From Phascolarctobacterium sp. (GTDB lineage: Bacteria > Bacillota > Negativicutes > Acidaminococcales > Acidaminococcaceae): a DNA stretch of 47,616 nt. The position numbers and the translations under genes were made by a program. The stretch is taken from contig JAFTMR010000029.1 of NCBI GenBank assembly GCA_017452325.1, forward strand, positions 1 through 47,616, in the 5' to 3' direction. This document shows positions 5,025 to 47,616 of the stretch, in pieces; the first letter of the stretch is position 1, and each line of letters starts with the position of its first letter. Below the pieces are notes generated by a model that was not told the DNA's origin, searched no databases, and was given only the letters and a program-made list of their open reading frames with translations.

Positions 5025-8000
5025 TCAGAAAGTTATTCTCAAGCCTGCGTCCAGACGCCATTTTTCGGTTACATCACCACCGAAGCTGCGTTCATAGGTT
5101 GCGTAAAGCAGGCTGTTATCGCTCAGCTTAGCAGTACCGCCAATTTGCATTTCGTACCAGGTATCGCCAAAGTCAATGCTGGTTCCCTTGGTTTCTTCCG
5201 CAGTGTAGCGGGTGTCGAAGCTGCCGCCAAATTCGTGCGCCAGTGCAAGCTTAGCATAGTAGCTTGCCTTATCCATTTGTTGACCAATGCCAAAACCGAT
5301 GCGACCAACAATGCTGTTGAAGCTGTCTTGTTCAACGTCCATGGTTGCGGTCTTGCCGTAAGCAGCGAGCAAGTTACTGGTTGCAGTGTAGTCCTTGCCT
5401 TGAACGTGACCGATGGTCAGCTCAACGCTGGGGTCAAAGTAGAAGCCGTTGCCCTTTTCAATACGCTTGCCGTATTCCGCACTGATGGAAGTACCCCAAG
5501 TTTTGTAGTCGCCTTCCAGTTTATAGCCATCGTTGTTGAATACTTCGTATTCGTTCTTGAGTTGGCTGCCTTTAACGATCAAGCCAAGGTAACGGCCGTC
5601 GCCATAATCCTTGTTGCCGTAAACGCTAAGACTGGTAACAGTGGTATCGCCCTTGCCGCCAAGGTCGTAATGGCTGTCGCCTTCGTTGTGGCTCACTGCC
5701 ACGCCTACGTTCCAACCATTGCCCACAGCCTTGTCATAGCCAACTTGGTATGCCTTGTAGCTGGTGGTGAAATTGGTCTTTTGAGCGTCCATTTCGTATT
5801 TACCGCCGTAGTATTTAGCCCAAACGCCGCTATCTTCCGTTGCCAGGCGCAGGTCGCCCATGCGTTGGAGAATGTCGTTGCTTTCGCTACGCCACATCAT
5901 AACGGTGGAAGCCATTGCAGATTTAGCGCCTTTCATCATAGCGGTTTCGCTATCGCCGTAGATGTAACCACTGTCAGGATATCTTGCAGTGATACTTTCA
6001 ACATCAAGCTCGCCAGTACCATTATTGGTAAAGTTAATGTTGCCAACCTTCAATGCACTTGCAGATGTTACGATACCTTCTGCAATTTGAGCCTCGCCAG
6101 AAAGCTTATCAGTATTAGTAAGTGCTTTACCATCTTCATCTTGAGCAATCATCTTGGCTGCCAAAGCTTGCAATACCTTAGTAACTTCTTCTTTATCGCT
6201 AGTGCCAATGCTGTTAGTTCTTACGTTAACGACGGAACCATCAGCAGCTTTGTTAATGGTAACATTACCACCTTGAATATTATTATCAGCATCGTGGTTG
6301 TAGATAAAGGTAGTTTCACCACTGTAATCTTTAACGGTCAAACCAACATCAGCATTTTCACTCATACGGATGTAACCAGATTGTTCACCCTCACCCGCAC
6401 CTTGCAAGCTGGTAACAGTGGTTGCCGCAGTTGCAGTTTGGTTATCCCATTGCGCACCATTAGCAATAGTCATATTAAGAGCAGAATTATCATTAGCACC
6501 CTCTTCGTGATAACCTTGCCATACGCCACCATCGTTCAGTACAACAGACAAGTCCACACCGCCAAGGCTATTGCCGTTCCACTTAGCACCGTTAGAGATA
6601 TTAACCTCGAAATCGTTAGCACCGCTGCCTTCGTATTGCAGGTCGTTGTTCCAGCTGGAACCAGCAGTTGCCAAGGTGATAGAGCGAGATTCTCCGCCAG
6701 CTGCGCTATCTGTACTATTAGCAACAGGCATAGCTCTCAGGCTTCTTAAACTCCAAACTGCAGCTTGTTCAACGGGTTGTTCTTGGTGCTTAACGCCAAA
6801 CAAGATCTTACCGTCAATTACAACATCACGTTTCTTGCCGTCTTTGTTAATCTTGATAGCGCCACCTTCAGTAACTTTGATTGCTACCTTATCTTTATCC
6901 GCACCAAATTTACCGCCACCAAGTTCAACCTTGGAATCCTTACCAACGTTGATGGCAGTATTACCATTGGTCTTGGTGATATCTACTAAGCCGTCAATTT
7001 TAACGCTTGCACCTTCGGTTGCGTAGAGTACGCCTTCGCCCTTGACATTGTTCGCATTTGCTTCCAATGTAACTACGCCACCAAGTTCTGCGTTTTCAAT
7101 AATAATGTTGGTATTAGCACCTTCCGCACGAATGGCAGTTGCAGTACCTTTTTCTGCATTGGTAACGATGTTGATATTACCAGCTTGTTTGATTTCTACC
7201 GTACCACCGTTGCTTGCAGAAATACCATCAGCCTTTGTGCCTTCGCCAGTAGTAGTACCGGAAACAGTAAGCTCCTTACCACCCATATCAATAACAACAT
7301 TTGCATCACTAGAATTACTGGAAATTACTACATTGTCAGCTTCTGTTTCTGCAACTTCAATCTTGACAGAACCAACTGCTTCGCCGTTGTCGCCTTCCAA
7401 GCTGCCAAGGTCAAGGGTACCTTCTTCCGTTACATACTCTTTATAATTATCATCCTCTGTCAAGCTGCCACCAGTAATACCAGTGTTAAAGCCTACCTCT
7501 ACTTCTTCCGGTTCTTCCGGCACAACAGGAGTTTCCGGAGTAACGGTGCCTTCACCATCACCGCCACCAGTAGTACCACCTTGGTTATTATCGCCAGTGT
7601 TATCGCCACCGCCTTGGGTGTTATCATCTCCACCACCAGTGGAACCGCCGTTCAGAACAAGGCTACCCTCTTTCAAGCTACCTTGACCGCTTGCACTACT
7701 AAATGCAATAGAGCCAACGTGCTTGCCAACACTTGCAGTGGTCAAGCCTTCCGCAATTTGCACATAACCTTTCAGGTTATTTTCACCTTGGATGTAGTTG
7801 GTGTAATACAGTTTTTCCGCAAGGTTATCCAGAGTTTCAGCAACTTGGCTATTAGTCAAAACATTGTAACCGTCAGTGCTCAAAGTAATCTTAGAGCCTT
7901 TTTCCGCATGTTCAATGGTGGTAGTACCACCCAAAACTTGGGTTACATTATTAACATCACGTCTATAAATTACAGTGGTATTACCGCTGTAATTGGTAAT

Positions 8001-11000
8001 CTTCATATTACCGGTTTCTTGTTGCCCCTTTTCTTCAATACTGGTATTTTGATGGCTTACACCATTACTACTTTCACCATGGCTTGCGTCATTGTGACCA
8101 ATAAAGGTTTTTTCACCAGTCATATCAATAAAGCCAGCGTTGCCAACAAAGTTATAAACCTTACTATCAGTGCCTTGGTCTTTGGTGATTGCGTTTTGCC
8201 ACAGCGCGCCATCAGTCAAGGTCAGGTTCAAACCACCATTAACTTCGCCCATTGCGTCAGGCTCGCGTTCCGCAATGTTAAATCCGTACCAAGTAGTGCC
8301 ATCACCTTCCATAGTAACGTTCATTTCGCCGTCACTAAAGCCTGTCCACTTCGCACCATCTTTCATATATAAGGTAACATTGCCTTCTTGACCTTGGGTT
8401 ACGCCATAACCGCGGTTATCACCGTAGTTGCCTGTCCAGTAGCTACCCTCGCCATTCAAGCCAACGGTAATATAACCTAAAGTACCCATACCACCATTGG
8501 TTACAAAGTCACCTTTAATGGTAGTAGTTCGTTCGCCTGCACCGGTAATGTTGCCAGCTTCGTCTTTAGTTACGTTAACATTTACGATTGCTGCGTTATC
8601 AGAAACGAATTCGCCATAAGCGCGAATAGCAGCCCAAGCACCGTTTATAGCTTGAATGTTGCCACCACCAATTTCAATGGTAGATGCTACTGCACTCAAC
8701 GCTTCGTTATTGCAATATTTCAAATCAGCAACTATATCTACTAAGCCCTCGATAATAACTTTAGAACGCAATCCTTCAACACCGTTCATAGTCTTAATGC
8801 CAGCACCAGCAGTTCCATAAGAAGTAATATTGTTAGAGCTGCCACCTGCTTTAGTTGTTATTTTAACGACACCACCATCACTATTTTTGATATGTACCAA
8901 ACCACCACTATTGGCAAAGATGCCAGCTGTGGGACCTTGACCATTTTCAGTAATAGTAATATTACCAGGGCTATTGATTTCAACAACGCCACCATCTACA
9001 GCACTAATAGATGCACCGCTACCAGTAGTTCGAGAGTTATTAGTTATAGTAAGATTATTATCATTTAAGTTGATGATAGTCTTATAAACCTTATCACTTA
9101 AATCACCAGTTGCACTAATCGCAGTAGATATATCCTTGTGCCAAGCACCACCAGGAATAGCTATATTATTTATAGTAAATTTAACATCTGGTTTGGTAAA
9201 GTCATAAACATTATAACCATCTTTCCCATCAACTCTTTTAAGAATACCTATCTGACTATTAACAAATTGTTTGTCTTTATACACATCACCATAAATAGGT
9301 ACTTTGATAGTATATTGGCTCATTGATGGAGTACCATAAAAGTTTTGTAAAGTAGCAGACGGCGGATTGTCAAAAATTTCTTTACCATAATAGTAGTCGC
9401 TATCTTCACTACCACCTTGGTCAGGTGTGGTGCTGCCATCATCAACCTTTAAAGACCCCAAACTACCTTTACCACTATTAGTATCAAACTGAATATTACC
9501 ATTCAATGTACCGCTATCTTTGTCAAAAGCAACTTTATCTTCCAAAGTGCTATCAACATTGCCTACGCTGTCAATGATTTCTTTAGCCAGTAATTCTGTG
9601 GTAATAGAAGAAGCCGTTAAACCTTCGCCAATCTTAACCTGGGCAGACAGATTATTTTCTCCAGTAGTATAGCCCGTATAAGTAAGCATTCCTGCAAGGC
9701 TGTTCATTACGTCATCCACATTACCTACAGTAATTGCGTCAGAATAATTAGTTTGCAGTGTAAGTTTGCTATTATCAGCAGCATTTATAATAGTTACGGT
9801 ACCACCTAAGAACGTTGTGGGATTGCTTTCGTCATAAGCATAAATTACAGTTGCGTTATTATGGAACTTATCAATTAAGATATCACCACTATCTTTTGTT
9901 TGGATAATTTTCGCATCTGCATAATTAGTTGATGTTCCACTACCAACACTTAAATCAGTGCCGCGGAAGTTTGTAAGATGACTTGTAACCCCTGTTTCAC
10001 CATTAGTAGAAACGTTAGTCCAAGTTGCACCATCAACCATGTAAAGGTTTGCAGTACCGCCATTATTATCAACGATACCATTAAAATATGCCTCATTACC
10101 CTTGAACCTTGTATCGATAAGACCATTATCACCAACGTACCAATCACCATCAATCATTCCACCATACGGTACTGTATTGTGGGCATAATGTGTTGGTGTC
10201 GTATCTATATAATTGAAATTACCGTTCATCTCATTATCAAAATAAATATTGCCTTCATAGGCTGCCAAAGAGTAATATTTATGGTTACTATCACCACGAG
10301 GCACAAGTATTTGACTACCTTGATACGGATTATAAAGTGTATTATTATTCCCAATAATTGCACCTGTTTTAACCAATGCCCTAGCGGCATCTACAGTAAT
10401 GCCATTACCACAAACATCCAAATAAACACTACCATTTACTTGCACATAAGTATGTTCACTAGCCCACTCTTTGTTACTTTGCTTGCCGTCTACTTCTACG
10501 AGGATACCAGAATTGTTATAACGCGCATCAGTATTTTCAGGATTGTTACCAATACCCCATTGCTTACCTTCTGTACCTTTAATTCTTAAATCACCATCAA
10601 TTAAGATTTGACCATAATTTTGTGATGTTTCTGCACCACCACTTGCGGTAATCGCCACGCCATTGCCGCCATTGCCACCAAGCATAGAAATATTAAGCCC
10701 CTTGGTTTCCAAACGTACACGTTTATTATTTGGCTCACCAGCAACGGTCTCAATCCAAACTGCATTTGTTCGTTCCTTACTGTCATCAGCCAACTTAGTT
10801 ACTATGTCTATAGGTTCTCCATTTTTATTATAACTAGAATGTCTGCTTACATTTACATAGCTATCAATTCCGTCTACATAAATACCAACAGGTCTATATT
10901 CATCATTGCCTTCTACTTGAATACGATTAATATATTTGTACAAAGTATACCCAGTTGTATCTTTATCACCATCTTTAATGTGAATGCCTGTTACAACTCG

Positions 11001-13994
11001 CTTACCATCAGGCCTAATGGCTTCGGTAGTATCAATTACGTTATCAGGTGTTGCATCAACAAATATATCGTTATCATACAGGGGGTCTTCATGATATTTT
11101 ACATCTGGAAAAGCAGGAACAGTGGGGTCTTGCACAATGTCGTCGCCACCAGTTCCACCGCCAGTGCTACCACCAACGCTATTATCTTCGCCAGTAATTT
11201 CACCAGTTATGCTACCTTGACCGGTTGCTTTATCAAACTTAATATTGGTTTGCTTGGTAACACTGGATGCGGTCAAGCCTTCGCTCAAGCCAAGGGCAAC
11301 TGCGGTAAGATTATTTTCACCAGTCTTGTAGCCAGTATAGTATAGCTTGTTGGCAATGGCTTCCAATACCTTTTCAACTTCCGCTGTGTCACTAGTCTTG
11401 ATACCTGCGTTGTTGGAGCTAATCATAGAAACAATACTGCCAACCGCCGCACTGCCAATGGTTACGTCACCGCCAAGAATGTTGTTGTTACCTTTGTCAT
11501 CTAAACCTTGGGCAGTATAGTTAATCTTTACTGCGCCTTTTAAGTTATCAATTTGCAAAAGGTCACTGTTAGCCTCTTGAATGATAACGCCGGCGTCATT
11601 AAGGCTTGCACCACCAGTAAGGGTAGTTACCCTGCTCTTTTCGCCATTGCCAACATCTTCGTTATCCTGTTCGTAACGAGTGTTGTTAGCTACGTTTGTC
11701 CAAGTCGCACCATTCTTTAAAGTAAGGTTTACGGTACCGCCATTATCAATAATGCCGTTAAGGTGGGACGCACCAGTTGCCAAGCCTAAGTTGATAGTTG
11801 CACCCTTAATTGCGAAGATGTCACCATTCAACTTAACATCATTATTGCCTGCACTCTTGTTCATATTGATGGTGCCATCGTAAGCGGCAAGTGCGTAGTA
11901 ACCATAATCAGTACCGGTGGGTACGGTAATAGTTCCTCCTTTAGCAAGGGTAACAGTTGCGTTCTTGCCATTGACGGTTACGCCGTTACCGTACACGTCC
12001 ATATCCACATTGCCTTTGACTTCAACGCTGCTGTTGTTCACGTCAACAAAAATACCTGCATTGTTAAAGCGGCTAAGTACGTTACTAGGATTGGCACCAA
12101 TGCCCCACTGGTCGCTATATTGACCTTTAATATTTAAATCGCCTTTGATAGTGATATCGCCACCCAAGGCGGAATCCTTACTGTTTTCACCCCAACGGTC
12201 GGTCTTTTGGATTGCGACACCGTTACCGCCGTAGCCACCTTCCATAGTGATGTTGGTAGCCTTGGCATCAATGGTAATGCTTTCGCCGCCAACAATAGTG
12301 GGGTCAAGCCAAACAGCATTGGTCAAGGTGTTGCCACCGTCCATAGTTTTAGTAAGGATATTTACATTACCATTGGTAGCGTTAACTTTAAGACTGCCAT
12401 CCTCACCAGTGTAAATGCCTACGGGAGAAGCAATGTTATTTTCTACTTGAATTTGTACGCCATTTTTAGCATTGACGGTGGAAGAAGTGCCTTCTGCATA
12501 AATGCCTGCAAGGACGTTGTTTTCCAAATTGCCTTCATCTGCAGTGGTAAGGTCAATTACAGGGTTGGCACCACTGATGTTAGCAATAATTTGATTTTTG
12601 ATAGCAGTAATGTTGGTGCCATCTTCTTTTTTAAGAACTGCGTTGGCGTTTTGCTCTGCAAGAGTGCCTTCGGGAAGCTTCAATTTTACCAGGTTGCCTT
12701 CGGGAATAACGTCAGTTCCGATGATATCCCAAGTATAGAGCTCATTATACAAGGTGCTAGTCGCAAAATCGGAAGTCCCATAACTTATAGGAGTGGTGGC
12801 ACCATCAGTGTAGATGTTCAACTTGTTGCCCACTTGTACCCACAGGCGCTTGGTATTGTATTCCGCATCCAAGCGACCAAACCAGCCAGGAGCGCCTTTT
12901 TGAGAATAAACTTCCTTCCAGTTTTGCGGATTGCTGGAAAGCAAGTTGCTTACAGTAGTTTGGTAAACGGTAACGTCAACATTATCGCCGCCAGTACCAA
13001 TGTTATAGGTCATAACGTAGGCGGTACCGTTGGGCATAACCTTTAAGCTACGGAACTCACTCTTGGGAATGGTCTGCCCATCACGCACTTGCAAGAGGTT
13101 TTCCGGCAGGGTGATGGCGCTGCTTTTTTGCAGGTAGTTGTAATCAGGGTGGATAGTTGCCACGTTCAGGCTGGTTTCCGCATTAGAGTTGGCAGCACCG
13201 TAGTTTTGGTAGCCGCCGATGGCGGTGGTAAGGATGTAGTTGTTGTACACGTTCAGCGCTACGCTATCAGTGTTCTTACCCATAGTTGCGTAGCCATCGT
13301 ATTTTAAACTACCATCCTTTTGGATAACGTACTTCATCAGATAGCTGTCGTTGTAAGGCTTGTAACCACCCTCCGGATTAACGTTGGCAATAACGTACAG
13401 GTTACCATCAACGATAACAACGCCTTCACCATGAAGCTGCGCCTTGCTGCTAAAAGTCTTGCCTGCATAGTCAATAAGGTCTTGTTTAAGGTTAACAGCC
13501 AAAGTAGGTAAATCTAAGATGTTTTTATCAGTACCATTATCATCTTGGACTACCTGTGCAATACCAACAGTACCCTCGTCATAGCTGGCAACGTAAACGT
13601 AATTGTTGTAGCGTACTACGTCATGGGCGTTAACTGCTTTACTAGTGTTGCCTGCTGCACGATTGTTCCAGTCTCCCTGTGCGTCGAAGGCATAGCTGTT
13701 CTGCAGGTTGGTAGTGCTGTAGTTATATTGACGGATATACAGGGAGCTTTTGCCTGTAACCGGGTCAATGGTGTTGTAAACCGCAGGATCGCGGTTCAAA
13801 TCCGTAATGACGGATTTAACAACGGTAATATCATCAGAATTTATATAGGAGCCTTGCACCGCGCCCATGTGGCTGGTTGCGTAGTCAGATGCAGTTACCA
13901 CACCAAGGTTGGCTGCTTCCGCACTGTGTCCCAAAACGAAGCCGCCCAGTACCGTAGCAAGGATGGCTGCTTTTTTAGTAGAGCTTATCTTCAT
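5025..13994 (-). CDS. Giant type Va autotransporter with N-terminal propeller-like domain
   Basis: A 2989-residue outer-membrane autotransporter. Residues 1-27 are a Sec signal ending HSAEA. Residues ~45-445 show recurring short strand repeats of the kind NNYVYVASYD, DGNLYVIANV, NNYILTTAIG, GTAYVMTYN and KRLWVQVGN, which look like beta-propeller blades. Residues ~450-2650 are four related beta-helical modules, each ending in a (L/Q)GG-V-TI segment (near 841, 1395, 2021, 2575) followed by a YTGY-GENNL-type motif and EGLTASS. Gly/Thr/Asp-rich linkers separate them (near 941, 1521, 2131). Residues ~2720-2989 form the translocator barrel, starting SGVWAKYYGGKYEMD and ending in phenylalanine (RITF), as the BAM signal requires. 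The ATG follows AAAGGATAAAAG and lies 16 bases after the TonB receptor stop, so both are in one transcript behind the cobalamin riboswitch. The barrel call is secure; a role in B12 capture is inference. Confidence 0.93.
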   Translation of the reverse strand: MKISSTKKAAILATVLGGFVLGHSAEAANLGVVTASDYATSHMGAVQGSYINSDDITVVKSVITDLNRDPAVYNTIDPVTGKSSLYIRQYNYSTTNLQNSYAFDAQGDWNNRAAGNTSKAVNAHDVVRYNNYVYVASYDEGTVGIAQVVQDDNGTDKNILDLPTLAVNLKQDLIDYAGKTFSSKAQLHGEGVVIVDGNLYVIANVNPEGGYKPYNDSYLMKYVIQKDGSLKYDGYATMGKNTDSVALNVYNNYILTTAIGGYQNYGAANSNAETSLNVATIHPDYNYLQKSSAITLPENLLQVRDGQTIPKSEFRSLKVMPNGTAYVMTYNIGTGGDNVDVTVYQTTVSNLLSSNPQNWKEVYSQKGAPGWFGRLDAEYNTKRLWVQVGNKLNIYTDGATTPISYGTSDFATSTLYNELYTWDIIGTDVIPEGNLVKLKLPEGTLAEQNANAVLKKEDGTNITAIKNQIIANISGANPVIDLTTADEGNLENNVLAGIYAEGTSSTVNAKNGVQIQVENNIASPVGIYTGEDGSLKVNATNGNVNILTKTMDGGNTLTNAVWLDPTIVGGESITIDAKATNITMEGGYGGNGVAIQKTDRWGENSKDSALGGDITIKGDLNIKGQYSDQWGIGANPSNVLSRFNNAGIFVDVNNSSVEVKGNVDMDVYGNGVTVNGKNATVTLAKGGTITVPTGTDYGYYALAAYDGTINMNKSAGNNDVKLNGDIFAIKGATINLGLATGASHLNGIIDNGGTVNLTLKNGATWTNVANNTRYEQDNEDVGNGEKSRVTTLTGGASLNDAGVIIQEANSDLLQIDNLKGAVKINYTAQGLDDKGNNNILGGDVTIGSAAVGSIVSMISSNNAGIKTSDTAEVEKVLEAIANKLYYTGYKTGENNLTAVALGLSEGLTASSVTKQTNIKFDKATGQGSITGEITGEDNSVGGSTGGGTGGDDIVQDPTVPAFPDVKYHEDPLYDNDIFVDATPDNVIDTTEAIRPDGKRVVTGIHIKDGDKDTTGYTLYKYINRIQVEGNDEYRPVGIYVDGIDSYVNVSRHSSYNKNGEPIDIVTKLADDSKERTNAVWIETVAGEPNNKRVRLETKGLNISMLGGNGGNGVAITASGGAETSQNYGQILIDGDLRIKGTEGKQWGIGNNPENTDARYNNSGILVEVDGKQSNKEWASEHTYVQVNGSVYLDVCGNGITVDAARALVKTGAIIGNNNTLYNPYQGSQILVPRGDSNHKYYSLAAYEGNIYFDNEMNGNFNYIDTTPTHYAHNTVPYGGMIDGDWYVGDNGLIDTRFKGNEAYFNGIVDNNGGTANLYMVDGATWTNVSTNGETGVTSHLTNFRGTDLSVGSGTSTNYADAKIIQTKDSGDILIDKFHNNATVIYAYDESNPTTFLGGTVTIINAADNSKLTLQTNYSDAITVGNVDDVMNSLAGMLTYTGYTTGENNLSAQVKIGEGLTASSITTELLAKEIIDSVGNVDSTLEDKVAFDKDSGTLNGNIQFDTNSGKGSLGSLKVDDGSTTPDQGGSEDSDYYYGKEIFDNPPSATLQNFYGTPSMSQYTIKVPIYGDVYKDKQFVNSQIGILKRVDGKDGYNVYDFTKPDVKFTINNIAIPGGAWHKDISTAISATGDLSDKVYKTIINLNDNNLTITNNSRTTGSGASISAVDGGVVEINSPGNITITENGQGPTAGIFANSGGLVHIKNSDGGVVKITTKAGGSSNNITSYGTAGAGIKTMNGVEGLRSKVIIEGLVDIVADLKYCNNEALSAVASTIEIGGGNIQAINGAWAAIRAYGEFVSDNAAIVNVNVTKDEAGNITGAGERTTTIKGDFVTNGGMGTLGYITVGLNGEGSYWTGNYGDNRGYGVTQGQEGNVTLYMKDGAKWTGFSDGEMNVTMEGDGTTWYGFNIAEREPDAMGEVNGGLNLTLTDGALWQNAITKDQGTDSKVYNFVGNAGFIDMTGEKTFIGHNDASHGESSNGVSHQNTSIEEKGQQETGNMKITNYSGNTTVIYRRDVNNVTQVLGGTTTIEHAEKGSKITLSTDGYNVLTNSQVAETLDNLAEKLYYTNYIQGENNLKGYVQIAEGLTTASVGKHVGSIAFSSASGQGSLKEGSLVLNGGSTGGGDDNTQGGGDNTGDNNQGGTTGGGDGEGTVTPETPVVPEEPEEVEVGFNTGITGGSLTEDDNYKEYVTEEGTLDLGSLEGDNGEAVGSVKIEVAETEADNVVISSNSSDANVVIDMGGKELTVSGTTTGEGTKADGISASNGGTVEIKQAGNINIVTNAEKGTATAIRAEGANTNIIIENAELGGVVTLEANANNVKGEGVLYATEGASVKIDGLVDITKTNGNTAINVGKDSKVELGGGKFGADKDKVAIKVTEGGAIKINKDGKKRDVVIDGKILFGVKHQEQPVEQAAVWSLRSLRAMPVANSTDSAAGGESRSITLATAGSSWNNDLQYEGSGANDFEVNISNGAKWNGNSLGGVDLSVVLNDGGVWQGYHEEGANDNSALNMTIANGAQWDNQTATAATTVTSLQGAGEGEQSGYIRMSENADVGLTVKDYSGETTFIYNHDADNNIQGGNVTINKAADGSVVNVRTNSIGTSDKEEVTKVLQALAAKMIAQDEDGKALTNTDKLSGEAQIAEGIVTSASALKVGNINFTNNGTGELDVESITARYPDSGYIYGDSETAMMKGAKSAMASTVMMWRSESNDILQRMGDLRLATEDSGVWAKYYGGKYEMDAQKTNFTTSYKAYQVGYDKAVGNGWNVGVAVSHNEGDSHYDLGGKGDTTVTSLSVYGNKDYGDGRYLGLIVKGSQLKNEYEVFNNDGYKLEGDYKTWGTSISAEYGKRIEKGNGFYFDPSVELTIGHVQGKDYTATSNLLAAYGKTATMDVEQDSFNSIVGRIGFGIGQQMDKASYYAKLALAHEFGGSFDTRYTAEETKGTSIDFGDTWYEMQIGGTAKLSDNSLLYATYERSFGGDVTEKWRLDAGLRITF

Positions 13995-14010
13995 CTTTTA
14001 TCCTTCTTTC

Positions 14011-16695
14011 TTAGAAATCACATTTCAAGGTTGCGTAGTAGGTTCTACCCTGAATGGGGAACTCCGGATTGATGTAGTAACCATTGTAGTTAATCTTTTG
14101 TTCCGGCCCCTTATCAAAGACGTCGTTACAGCCAACGGTCAACTGCCATCTATCTTTAATTTTCCACTTCAAACCAGTGTTGAACACTAACAGCTCGTCC
14201 GTAGGCATACCACTCAGATAAGCTTCTTCGCCGCCGCGGCTGTCTTTATTCCTGTTGGTGTAGTACATATCGGTGTAGTGAGCTTCGGCAAAAATATCAA
14301 GATTACTTTCCGGACGATAAGTAAGGCGTACGTTGCCCTCCCACTCCGGCTGATAAGTTGCCCATACATCCGTCCAGCCAAATCCACCGGCAGCAGTACT
14401 ATTCCTGCTTTCGGCATCCGTCTTGGTATAGGTCGCCTGCAGGTCTAAATCAAACTTGTTCCAGTTAAAGCTGGTCTGCAGCTCGATGCCCTTGGAGGTA
14501 CCGCGGTTATCATTCATGTAGCACCAGTAGTCCTTGCCATAGCGTTGCAGTTGCAGCATATTTTCAGAATCACGCCAGAAGTAGGTCAAGGTTGTCTTAT
14601 TGAAACCACCCAAGGCGTTGCCGTTCCACAGGGCGCTAATGTCAAACTGCTTGCCTTCTTCCGGATACGGGAAGGATGATTCACGTCCGTTAACGTTAGG
14701 AGCCGGTAGGATGCCTGCACCGTCACCGGCAATCTCGTACATATTGAGCAAGCGGTAGTAGGTACCACCGGTCATGCGCATGGTAAAATTACTATCGAAT
14801 TCCTTTTTCAGCGCAACTTGCCAAGTCACTTTATCATCCGTCTGTTCATCCTTGGGATGAATCCAGCTAAAGGCAGTTTCCGCACCTTCTTGGAAGCGGT
14901 TACCGTTACTGTAACCAGTAATCTTGGAGCGATTATACCTTACTGCGGGTGTCAGGAACCAGGATGATTTATCGTCTAAAGTAATGGTATCTTGAATTTG
15001 TACGTTCAACAAATCCTGTTCATATTCATCACGAATCTGACCCATAATAGAGTTAACATTTTCACCAGTGAGAATCTCATCCATATTGGAACCATCTACA
15101 TTCAGCTTTTCGTGAGAATAGTTCACCTGGAAGTCCAGCATATTGTTCTCACCCAGCTTATAGGTACCGTCAATCTGACCGTTGTACTTGTCTGATTTAT
15201 ACTCACTAAACCTGCGCAAAGGTATATTGGAAGCTTCAAAGTCCGTTATATCATTATCCATAATATGTTCAGCACGATATTCCTTGTCGGACTTGGTGTA
15301 GTCCAACATCCAACCCCATTCTAGTTTGCCCACGTTATTACGATTTTGGAGCATCAATTCTTTAGTATCTATCTTTTGACGACGACTATCGTAGAAATAG
15401 GTATCTTCAACGTCTACCATATAGGAAGGCAGTGCGTCTGCTGCGGAGCCGTTCCACAGGCTGTCCGGCAGATGGCGGTCAATTTTGTTCCAAGCAGCCT
15501 TCGCCATCCAGTTTTCGTTCTGCCATTTCAAAATGGTGTTGATGTTTTCGTAATCATTGTAGTCGCGCCAACGCTTAGCATTCTTGGCGTACTGCAGCTT
15601 GCGCTGATTTTCTTTAATGGTTTCTTTATGACTCTTGTTGATTTCGTTGCTTTCAATGTCAACATCAGCAAGCTTTTGGGCTACAAGGTAGTCGGTAACC
15701 TTGTTCATTACTTCTTGATTGATGTTACCTGCACTTTGCTCATCGCGAAATTTTTGCTCCCAATTTTCTCCATATAATTGAGAAGCTTCAGATTTCACCA
15801 TATCAGTTATAGTAATATCGCTGGCGGTAATGGTACCTCTAATATCTGTTTCAAAACCACCTTCGCTTACATAAGCTTGCCAAGCTTCAGCACTCATATC
15901 AGCACCGCCGGCAGCTTCAAAATTTTCAGTACCATCTAAACCACCGGCATACTTGCTTATGCTGGTAGCGTAAAAATTTTTCAGCGCTGCTTGTGATTCA
16001 GCAATCTGGCTGTTCAGCAGGTTGATATTATTTTTAGCAGCGTAGTTCTCATAGGTAAAGTCACCATCACTGCTTTCGTAACTGGTGCCAAACATCAAGC
16101 TGCCACTTCCGAGTGGAGCAGTTACTTCTACAGCACCTTTTTTACCACCGTAACTACTGGTACCAAGTTCAACGCTAACATCTGCCTTATCGGGACGTTT
16201 GGTTACGATGTTGATTACACCACCAATAAAGGTACCTGCGAAACGGGCAGGAATATAACCACGATAAACTTCAATGCGTTCTACATTGGCAACGGGAATG
16301 GTGGAAAGGTCCACTGCGCTGTCGCCGCCAAGGTTACTAAGCACGCCGTCAATAAATACGCCAACCTGCGCCGCAGTGGAACCGCGGACGGTTACAGTGG
16401 TGTATTGACCCTTGCCGTTTACCTCGCGCACGTGTACGCCGGGCACTTTGCGCATAAGGTCAGGTAAGGTCTTTTGTTCGCCCTTGTAGTCATCCGGGCG
16501 GATTACGGTAACGCTACCGGGGGATAGCTTGCTTTCCCAGTCGGGGCGTGCCGCTTCTACGGTAATGCCTTCAAGGTCAAAAGCCATTTGCGCCTGTACT
16601 TCCTGGGCTTGGGTACTAGTAGCTCCAAACACGCAGCAGCCTAGGACAAAGGCGATTGCCAAGGTTAATTGCTTGTTGTTTTTTTGCTTTTCCAT
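14011..16695 (-). CDS. TonB-dependent outer-membrane receptor, BtuB-like
   Basis: An 894-residue TonB-dependent receptor that probably imports cobalamin using energy from TonB-ExbBD. After the signal peptide (residues ~8-35, ending STQAQ) comes a TonB-box-like GITVEAAR. The plug domain has PDLMRKVPGV, RGSTAAQVGVFIDG, RIEVYRGYIPARF and GGVINIVTK. A 22-strand barrel follows and ends in the aromatic KCDF. Between early barrel strands there is an extra ~150-residue, mostly helical acidic stretch (residues ~220-370) that ordinary BtuB lacks. I prefer the ATG at 16693-16695 (GGAG nine bases upstream) over an ATG five codons earlier that has no ribosome site. The cobalamin riboswitch upstream supports the substrate. 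I give no symbol because substrate is inferred from context. Confidence 0.92.
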   Translation of the reverse strand: MEKQKNNKQLTLAIAFVLGCCVFGATSTQAQEVQAQMAFDLEGITVEAARPDWESKLSPGSVTVIRPDDYKGEQKTLPDLMRKVPGVHVREVNGKGQYTTVTVRGSTAAQVGVFIDGVLSNLGGDSAVDLSTIPVANVERIEVYRGYIPARFAGTFIGGVINIVTKRPDKADVSVELGTSSYGGKKGAVEVTAPLGSGSLMFGTSYESSDGDFTYENYAAKNNINLLNSQIAESQAALKNFYATSISKYAGGLDGTENFEAAGGADMSAEAWQAYVSEGGFETDIRGTITASDITITDMVKSEASQLYGENWEQKFRDEQSAGNINQEVMNKVTDYLVAQKLADVDIESNEINKSHKETIKENQRKLQYAKNAKRWRDYNDYENINTILKWQNENWMAKAAWNKIDRHLPDSLWNGSAADALPSYMVDVEDTYFYDSRRQKIDTKELMLQNRNNVGKLEWGWMLDYTKSDKEYRAEHIMDNDITDFEASNIPLRRFSEYKSDKYNGQIDGTYKLGENNMLDFQVNYSHEKLNVDGSNMDEILTGENVNSIMGQIRDEYEQDLLNVQIQDTITLDDKSSWFLTPAVRYNRSKITGYSNGNRFQEGAETAFSWIHPKDEQTDDKVTWQVALKKEFDSNFTMRMTGGTYYRLLNMYEIAGDGAGILPAPNVNGRESSFPYPEEGKQFDISALWNGNALGGFNKTTLTYFWRDSENMLQLQRYGKDYWCYMNDNRGTSKGIELQTSFNWNKFDLDLQATYTKTDAESRNSTAAGGFGWTDVWATYQPEWEGNVRLTYRPESNLDIFAEAHYTDMYYTNRNKDSRGGEEAYLSGMPTDELLVFNTGLKWKIKDRWQLTVGCNDVFDKGPEQKINYNGYYINPEFPIQGRTYYATLKCDF

Positions 16696-16773
16696 CAACA
16701 ACATCTCCATTCATATATCAGTGAGAGTTTTCCAAGTGAGAGTTAAAATAAAAAAGAACCTGAATGTATCCGG

Positions 16774-16944
16774 TTACAGCCTGCTTAACATACGAACATC
16801 CATTTCTTCAAAGGGTTGTTCACAGTAGGTTAAGACTTCGTTGGCGAGTGACAGCAGGAGTTTTTTATCAACCGTTATGGTTTCCTCCTCTGAGTTTTGC
16901 CAAAGCTCCAGATAATATTCAAGTTCTTCATCGGTATAGTTCAT
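16774..16944 (-). CDS. 56-residue small acidic protein, unknown
   Basis: A short open frame from ATG 16942-16944 to TAA 16774-16776, preceded by an excellent ribosome site (GGGGGAGGTG, eight bases from ATG). The protein starts MNYTDEELEYYLELWQ and contains the helical stretch KKLLLSLANEVLTYCEQPF; it is acidic and predicted helical, with one cysteine and no signal peptide or membrane segment. It is the first gene after the cobalamin riboswitch, so its translation or transcription should be controlled by B12. It ends about 80 bases before the receptor start. I do not recognise a family. It could be a leader gene coupling riboswitch control to the receptor, or a regulatory microprotein. Confidence 0.7.
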   Translation of the reverse strand: MNYTDEELEYYLELWQNSEEETITVDKKLLLSLANEVLTYCEQPFEEMDVRMLSRL

Positions 16945-16985
16945 TTTGCACACACCTCCCCCAAGACAGACTAAACCCTTGGATT

Positions 16986-17165
16986 GGTACGCCTTCCCAT
17001 ACGACGCAGGAGGAGTATGTGCAAATAACAGCGCCCTGACTTAGTTCATCACCACTTCATCCCGTGCGATAGGTTATGACGGAGCGGCTCCCATTACAGC
17101 TGCGGTACAGTGCCAGATTCTCACTAGGCTTTCCTGTTTAAACCTTGGGCTTACGCCCAAGTACC
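16986..17165 (-). ncRNA. Cobalamin riboswitch (Rfam Cobalamin type)
   Basis: On the minus strand the closing stem is GGTAC (17161-17165) with GTACC (16986-16990). Inside are the conserved core elements TTTAAACAGGAAAGCC, GTGAGAATCTGGCACTGTACCGC in two parts (GTGAGAATC then CACTGTACCGC), GCTGTAATGGGAGC and, near the 3' end, GGGAAGGC. A CCAAG/CTTGG stem follows directly and borders the GGGGGAGG ribosome site of the small protein, consistent with control of translation. Cobalamin binding normally represses such operons. The element therefore assigns the small protein, receptor and autotransporter to a B12-repressed unit. Confidence 0.92.
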
Positions 17166-17637: not shown

Positions 17638-17715
17638 ATGACTGTCTACGAAGCGTTGTCTTTAATGATTACCTTTGGTATTCTCGTTGCTACCATTATT
17701 CTTGGATGTAAGTAA
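17638..17715 (+). CDS. Hol-Tox type I toxin peptide, copy A
   Basis: A 25-residue membrane peptide, MTVYEALSLM followed by a hydrophobic segment ITFGILVATIIL and the end GCK. This is the putative holin-like toxin family (Hol-Tox, related to TxpA/BrnT-type small toxins of Firmicutes), which inserts into the membrane when its mRNA is not silenced. The ribosome site GGGGGTGATAGC is partly hidden by an upstream CCTCC. Downstream, the 3' untranslated region is overlapped by a convergent antisense RNA. Two closely similar copies occur at 44841 and 45276. It is too short for ordinary gene callers. Confidence 0.85.
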   Translation: MTVYEALSLMITFGILVATIILGCK

Positions 17716-46894: not shown

Positions 46895-47616
46895 TTATTT
46901 TTCAGCCAATTTAGCTACGAGAGCTTCAAGTTTAGCAACTCTTTCTTCAAGTGCTTCGTTTTCAGCTTTAATAGCTTGGTTTTCAGCTTCCATAGTGCTT
47001 ACTTTTTGAACAAGCTCTTTCTTGCTCAGTTTAGGAGTGCCTTTTGCACCGTCCAAGCCAATGGATACACCCAGGTTAACCATGTTTTCACCATTACCCA
47101 TGGTACCACCCAAGCTGAACATCAATTTTTCGTCAGGACGATAGAACGCACCAAGAGCCATTGCATTTTCACCTGCATAATTACCTACACCAGCAGAGAA
47201 AGTCAGTTTGTCATCCGGATCATAATCCAGCGGATGGAGAGCTGCCAGAGCTGCTGCGCCAGCACCAACTTTGTTAATCTTACCGTTCATTTTGCCAAGA
47301 CGTTGGTTCAAGCCGCTGATAGCTTCTGCATTATTGGATATAGCGGTGCTGTTAGCTTCGATTGCTTTTGCATTAGCTTCATCACCCGCAATACGTGCTT
47401 CTTCTTCAGTAGCAATAGCCTTCTTGTTAGCAGCAATGTTCTCTGCATTAGCAACAACCTGTTGATTAGTTTTACCAAGTTCAGCATTGAAATGTTCATT
47501 AGTCTTCACGAGTTCATCGTTAAGAGCAGATACATTTGCATTAGTCTTTTGCAGTTCTTCATTGGTTTTCACAACTTCATTATTCAAATTGCTCAAATCA
47601 GTTTGAATAGTATCTG
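46895..47616 (-). CDS. Trimeric autotransporter adhesin, C-terminal part (YadA-type)
   Basis: The frame is open at the window end, so only the last ~240 residues are seen. Residues up to ~105 are a stalk coiled coil with recurring Asn in heptads (NNEVVKTNEELQKTN, AIEANSTAISNN). The YadA anchor follows: GKINKVGAGAAALAALHPL, DKLTFSAGVGNYAGENAMALG, FYRPDEKLMFSLGG and NMVNLGVSIGLDG, which make the four strands of the trimeric barrel. Instead of ending there, as in YadA, the protein continues with ~55 residues of charged heptads (VSTMEAENQAIKAENEALEE) that would lie in the periplasm. The protein is an adhesin of the type Vc secretion class. Confidence 0.92.
   Translation of the reverse strand, partial: DTIQTDLSNLNNEVVKTNEELQKTNANVSALNDELVKTNEHFNAELGKTNQQVVANAENIAANKKAIATEEEARIAGDEANAKAIEANSTAISNNAEAISGLNQRLGKMNGKINKVGAGAAALAALHPLDYDPDDKLTFSAGVGNYAGENAMALGAFYRPDEKLMFSLGGTMGNGENMVNLGVSIGLDGAKGTPKLSKKELVQKVSTMEAENQAIKAENEALEERVAKLEALVAKLAEK

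Follow-up and report, generated by a model that had tools for sequence, protein, structure and literature searches.

BtuG of Bacteroides is a seven-bladed beta-propeller lipoprotein that caps the transporter BtuB, with cobamides held in its central cavity (PMC10404256). BtuG is reported from Bacteroidetes only (PMC6143338) and lipoprotein-capped TonB transporters are described as seemingly exclusive to Bacteroidetes (PMC10404256). Here we analyzed a gene unit of Phascolarctobacterium sp. (Negativicutes) that lies on contig JAFTMR010000029.1 of assembly GCA_017452325.1; the whole stretch of 47,616 nt is referred to as the window. On its minus strand, a cobalamin riboswitch, a 56-codon open reading frame (ORF), a TonB receptor, a giant autotransporter and a YbjN-like gene follow in this order. 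We consider it probable that the unit is a cobamide (B12) uptake operon whose autotransporter displays a BtuG-like propeller serving the BtuB-like receptor. As in the BtuB-BtuG system, the propeller is predicted to align with the BtuG fold and its gene adjoins a btuB-type receptor gene; unlike BtuG, it has no lipobox, is fused to an autotransporter, shows no detected sequence similarity to BtuG and occurs in Negativicutes, with standalone relatives in Fusobacterium. The XusA-XusB pair of Bacteroides also joins a TonB receptor to a propeller lid, and the receptor profile matches, among others, XusA chain 9gbc, but that pair differs in its siderophore ligand and lipoprotein anchor (PMC13142918).

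Architecture of the window unit

The original prediction had placed a riboswitch, a small gene, a TonB receptor and, 16 nt further on, a 2,989-residue autotransporter on one strand, and matches to RF00174, Plug and PF03797 together with the ORFs confirmed this arrangement. All on the minus strand, the divergent riboswitch aptamer lies at 17183-17010, the short ORF at 16944-16774, the 899-residue receptor at 16710-14011 (Pfam Plug, 7e-19) and the autotransporter at 13994-5025 (PF03797, 1.9e-35, residues 2724-2968). Against PDB, the receptor profile found its best matches in BtuB of E. coli (8.5e-22), in the plug region only. The best of 14 listed NCBIfam models was TonB-B12 (TIGR01779, 2.2e-28), with a score of 99.2 bits that does not reach the curated cut-off of 599.7; several siderophore-receptor models also matched. 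As judged from these profiles, BtuB-like is the right label for the receptor and the name BtuB is not established. In E. coli, a cobalamin riboswitch lies ahead of the transport gene btuB; the window unit shares the receptor family and the riboswitch, and differs in having a propeller-autotransporter partner and a short ORF in between.

The autotransporter resembles type Va proteins in its C-terminal PF03797 barrel (123.3 bits against a cut-off of 26), its N-terminal export signal (seen by eye) and its long passenger; it differs in that the passenger is headed by a propeller and the gene stands beside a TonB receptor. Approximately the first 400 residues are predicted to form a beta-propeller (residues 28-430, 12705-13913, minus strand; AlphaFold predicted local distance difference test (pLDDT) 87), and this model aligns to BtuG over most of its length. 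In a structural comparison over Foldseek's 1000 best chains, BtuG structures (BtuG1-3) made up 11 of the 18 top rows, tied with gluconolactonase-type propellers (3scy, 6igb and 4qrj). In Foldseek's own ranking, no chain titled BtuG stood among the best 50 rows listed, which included 3fgb (no function in its title), a gluconolactonase-type propeller, LRP and sialidases. The propeller profile had no meaningful match among PDB sequences, and none to a BtuG chain at E <= 10; the window propeller also matched no Pfam or NCBIfam family. A lipobox cysteine is absent, the only cysteines of the 2,989-residue protein being at 1195 and 1761. Because it has no lipobox and its sequence homology to BtuG is not established, we do not file the protein in the BtuG lipoprotein family, even as the window system likely works like BtuB-BtuG.

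The propeller is followed by a stalk of about 2,250 residues (431-2680; 5955-12704) and by the barrel (residues 2681-2989 plus stop; 5025-5954), both on the minus strand. Compared with 12 relatives, the conserved parts are the propeller (43-83% identity), residues 431-920 (47-67%) and the barrel (44-91%). The stalk is most variable and gapped at residues 921-1500 (24-48%) and 2101-2680 (25-57%), with residues 1501-2100 intermediate (33-70%), so that conservation is higher in the propeller than along most of the stalk. An AlphaFold model of residues 1-925 (pLDDT 63) was too weak for use on the stalk. The Pfam barrel model misses both Sporomusa autotransporters and P0064. A profile built from the barrels of 13 relatives, the window's own included, recovered a barrel in 120/120 of the best 120 of 218 proteins (its own 13 members included), as well as in the two Sporomusa proteins and the C118, G020 and G049 copies. 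A YbjN-like gene for a 148-aa product (4878-4432, minus strand; Pfam YbjN E 0.0013, below the cut-off) lies downstream of the autotransporter, as it also does in four other loci (L041, L042, L044 and L045).

Distribution and apparent co-inheritance of propeller and receptor

The class was searched in 380 genomes of 102 genera, and a contig search with the receptor alignment gave 22 loci. The propeller domain was found in 38 genomes of 21 genera, with 56 hits in total. Twenty-two hits fall in open frames of 970-4723 aa, here called fused, and the rest in frames of 220-507 aa, here called standalone. Since fused denotes a long open frame, we note that ten of the 22 read through to a barrel (the window, L019, L041-L045, L107 and the Sporomusa units of G298 and G300, loci L090 and L089), and that in the other 12 the sequence stretch ends inside the gene. 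We analyzed 54 units, the window unit plus 53 of the 55 remaining hits; L138 and L140 were dropped as their ORFs failed the profile at E <= 1e-3.

A TonB receptor adjoins the propeller gene in 47 of the 54 units. Among fused units the receptor is directly upstream on the same strand in 19/22, with gaps of -11 to 33 nt, and 28/32 standalone units have an adjacent same-strand receptor. The other three fused units each lie behind an ORF with an autotransporter barrel at its end and look, from their gene order, like tandem second autotransporters (L107/L109 in G132, L110 in G129 and L111 in G131). Of 49 testable units, 40 have a sense cobalamin riboswitch in the 1.6 kb upstream (16/17 first fused, 24/29 standalone and 0/3 tandem), a count that omits five units whose upstream sequence is absent or nearly so (L042, L044, L120, L142 and L143). 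Three of the 40 matches are below the gathering score: C118 (27.3 bits; 33.1 in the genome search), G024 (AdoCbl family, 32.4 against a cut-off of 50) and G023:C40 (28.3). Random placement would give about 0.003 riboswitches per upstream stretch searched, given at least 509 riboswitches in approximately 130.5 Mb (38 genomes; sizes rounded). The arrangement of riboswitch, receptor and autotransporter recurs in Phascolarctobacterium, Selenomonas and Sporomusa. The expectation that autotransporter genes beside btuB-type genes and RF00174 matches would recur in Negativicutes was thus upheld for the arrangement, but not for autotransporters in general: the conserved element is the N-terminal propeller, which also stands alone beside the same kind of receptor.

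The one first fused unit without a sense riboswitch, in G049, has a riboswitch on the opposite strand, ahead of a MerR gene; the riboswitch and the divergent MerR-type regulator sit beside the receptor-autotransporter unit (L043, 3974-4600 (-) and 4862-4696 (-)), and this regulator may pass on the B12 signal. The G023:C40 unit lies downstream of same-strand genes for cobyric acid synthase, corrinoid adenosyltransferase and CbiC, and the sub-threshold riboswitch stands between these genes and the unit. G025, of the same genus, has neither the propeller nor any riboswitch match.

Beyond the class, a protein search with the standalone form of Pelosinus returned at least 107 relatives, Fusobacterium proteins among them; the source names of those listed are only 'hypothetical' or 'uncharacterized'. 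The propeller also occurs on contigs titled Deltaproteobacteria (L098, standalone) and Prevotellaceae (L080, fused), the latter a 6.6-kb contig of a metagenome-assembled genome that may be misbinned. A plasmid search with the 12-kb unit gave no match.

Trees were built from 43 units with a partner receptor of at least 650 aa and a propeller match of at least about 250 residues. Propeller and receptor distances are correlated with r = 0.90, compared with a permutation maximum of 0.26 (43 pairs; the permutations keep species relatedness in), and the correlation persists within fused units (0.85; permutation maximum 0.42) and within standalone units (0.92; 0.46). The 18 fused units included group together as a single clade, with support 1.0 in the propeller tree and likewise in the receptor tree. 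Four genomes carry a fused as well as a standalone unit; in these, the receptor belonging to the fused one groups with other fused receptors and not with the standalone receptor of the same genome. From the matching trees, the single fused clade and the sorting in these four genomes, propeller and receptor look to have been inherited together, and the propeller seems to have been fused to an autotransporter only once.

The same assembly (1.8 Mb, 119 contigs, 89.7% complete, 4.55% contamination) holds five riboswitch matches and 13 autotransporter barrels. Its contig C118 repeats the whole unit of riboswitch, short ORF, receptor, autotransporter and YbjN-like gene, with 70% identity to the window in the receptor, 64% in the autotransporter (barrel approximately 90%, 91% by segment) and 84% in the YbjN-like gene. 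Only two of the 13 barrel autotransporters carry the propeller, and exactly these two are on contigs with a cobalamin riboswitch. The C118 propeller groups with the copy of another species, G024, in the propeller tree, and the C118 unit may therefore be a paralogue or a contaminating contig; with either origin it is an independent, diverged instance of the unit. Close named Phascolarctobacterium relatives come from roe deer gut.

These data bear on an alternative explanation, in which the autotransporter acts in adhesion or surface remodelling and has no more than its B12 regulation in common with the receptor, the propeller binding a host or cell-surface ligand. Autotransporters are often adhesins, and in the available part of a Veillonella outer-membrane proteome study the classical autotransporters are adhesins or carriers of enzyme domains, with none linked to a B12 system (PMC5491611). 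The 13 barrels in the assembly, a YadA anchor elsewhere in the window and the partly variable stalk, as in adhesins, fit this explanation as well. Against it, the propeller stands without an autotransporter beside the same kind of receptor in most standalone units, the propeller and receptor trees match, and the propeller is the better conserved part relative to most of the stalk, and we regard an adhesin as unlikely.

Short observations were also made on the standalone units. By eye, the presence of a signal peptide varies among them (L087, L082, L093, L112, L117, L099, L125 and L120 versus L083, L084 and L118). An extended Shine-Dalgarno sequence with an ORF of 1-5 codons (for example ATG-TAG) recurs within the roughly 90-110 nt that precede the propeller in L087, L082, L093, L112, L117, L099, L125 and L120; this mini-ORF, between the receptor stop and the propeller start, resembles a ribosome-parking or mRNA-stabilising site. 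In a divergent subgroup (L132, L134, L136, L137, L139, L144 and L145), the propeller gene precedes a receptor of about 1350-1470 aa, most others being 750-1000 aa.

Predicted riboswitch control and transcription of the unit

The window riboswitch scores 33.7 bits against the RF00174 gathering score of 31.5 (E 5e-7 in the genome search), which is weak for such units, as the best match reaches 58.5-118.4 bits in 35 of the 40 riboswitch-bearing units. A stem of ten pairs, placed by eye, retains 92.5% of its pairing across four Phascolarctobacterium copies, with five of the ten pairs changed on both sides. In shuffle tests, 0/500 reached the percentage paired or the covariation score, 18/500 the count of doubly changed pairs and 347/500 the number of pair types. 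Because of this covariation across the four copies, a chance match would seem unlikely.

Just 3' of the aptamer, a stretch is predicted to pair with the Shine-Dalgarno sequence of the short ORF (16948-17027, minus strand; minimum free energy -32.1 kcal/mol, z -1.9). The same helix is predicted in the C118 copy (-29.8, z -3.3) and in G024 (-30.7, z -2.4). The short ORF itself is conserved in tblastn matches to C118 (68% identity over 53 aa) and G024 (42% over 55 aa) and to a 25-aa fragment at the contig edge of G023:C77; it matches no Pfam family. The likely mode of the riboswitch is translational control of the short ORF, which the receptor and autotransporter would follow through coupling. 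As the predicted platform covers only the ribosome-binding site of the short ORF, control of these two genes would be indirect. The proposal that the autotransporter is part of a B12 uptake system thus gains from its place in a recurrent unit with riboswitch and TonB receptor, and is qualified by the riboswitch's direct predicted target being the short ORF.

The absence of a terminator between receptor and autotransporter, also part of the original prediction, was corroborated: the terminator scan was empty in the 16-nt gap, and folding there was no better than in shuffles (z 0.39). An independent promoter and terminator between the two genes had been proposed as evidence against a joint transcript; the promoter scan gave one weak site (14589-14560, 9/12 matches) inside the receptor gene. 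Chance yields many such sites, 41 having been found in the region compared with 29 expected. An extended -10 element (TGCTATAAT) was seen by eye at 17278-17270, ahead of the aptamer. Further upstream, a strong intrinsic terminator at 17488-17461 (minus strand; 12 pairs and then a T-tract, -21.1 kcal/mol, z -5.6) likely ends the preceding transcript. A U-tract follows the short ORF in three copies. An intrinsic terminator between short ORF and receptor, proposed from this U-tract, was rejected, its hairpin being weak and no better than shuffles (z +1.1).

It is worth weighing whether the riboswitch controls the short ORF alone, with receptor and autotransporter transcribed from an internal promoter in response to another signal. 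The reach of the sequestering helix, the U-tract and the weak site in the receptor gene are compatible with such a division. Set against them, no stable terminator hairpin follows the short ORF, the promoter scan found no minus-strand site from the aptamer to 14589, and about 160-260 nt lie between riboswitch end and receptor ORF in eight units of Selenomonas type (L153-L156 and L158-L161). We judge an internal promoter distinctly improbable.

Proposed function, significance and neighbouring genes

In the uptake operon that we favor, the autotransporter would display the propeller on the cell surface, as autotransporter biology suggests, where the propeller would bind cobamides and pass them on to the BtuB-like TonB receptor, whose gene lies 16 nt upstream. 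B12 would repress the unit through translation of the short ORF and reach the receptor and autotransporter indirectly, for example by lost transcription-translation coupling. By a general rule for beta-helices, a stalk of about 2,250 residues would span some tens of nanometres. Several points weigh against this model: such a long and variable stalk argues for a tether rather than a tight lid; several standalone orthologues begin at the propeller without a signal peptide, as seen by eye; and the riboswitch is predicted to act first on a short ORF whose product has no assigned function.

Two further explanations concern the role of the propeller. It might be a corrinoid-processing enzyme of lactonase or hydrolase type that converts the corrinoid before uptake, as the structural tie with gluconolactonase-type propellers would allow; BtuG-type binding explains the pairing with the receptor and needs no catalysis, and we give an enzyme little credence. 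That the propeller serves another TonB ligand (siderophore or haem), with the riboswitch as cross-regulation only, has a precedent in the siderophore lid XusB (PMC13142918) and fits the 9gbc and siderophore-receptor matches, but the frequency of upstream cobalamin riboswitches, BtuB as the best receptor relative and the corrinoid genes adjoining the unit in G023 speak against it, and we hold this explanation to be very improbable.

Returning to the cobamide uptake operon, we lean, by a small degree, towards the broader view that diderm Firmicutes own a BtuB-BtuG-type system in which a giant autotransporter replaces the lipid anchor, giving a tethered 'fishing-rod' partner that arose once in Negativicutes and has been inherited with its receptor. 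Searches of open-licence papers yielded no described autotransporter partner of a TonB importer and none joining a cobalamin riboswitch to an autotransporter, in line with the original prediction, which knew of no described B12-regulated autotransporter in an importer unit. If true, this would be, as far as these searches show, the first described type V secretion presenting the substrate-capturing partner of a TonB-dependent importer, and a second solution to substrate capture for TonB import, in a diderm lineage unrelated to Bacteroidetes. It would also give autotransporters a role in nutrient capture and assign a function to a propeller family without a model in Pfam or NCBIfam. In one study, two Phascolarctobacterium species are predicted to make their own B12 (PMC7568257), and the unit would then salvage cobamides for a cell that may be a producer as well. 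The system would further bear on cobamide competition in the gut, where Phascolarctobacterium and Bacteroides interact according to that study (PMC7568257).

Two neighbouring features of the window were also recorded. A putative holin-like toxin of 25 aa (Hol_Tox, 4.5e-10) is encoded a short way upstream of the riboswitch, at 17638-17715 on the plus strand; opposite it, the minus strand carries a near-consensus promoter (17854-17827) and a terminator (17763-17732), and the ORF and this opposite-strand transcription unit are likely a type I toxin-antitoxin pair. At the window edge, 46895-47596 (minus strand) holds the end of a gene with a YadA anchor, as found in trimeric autotransporters.

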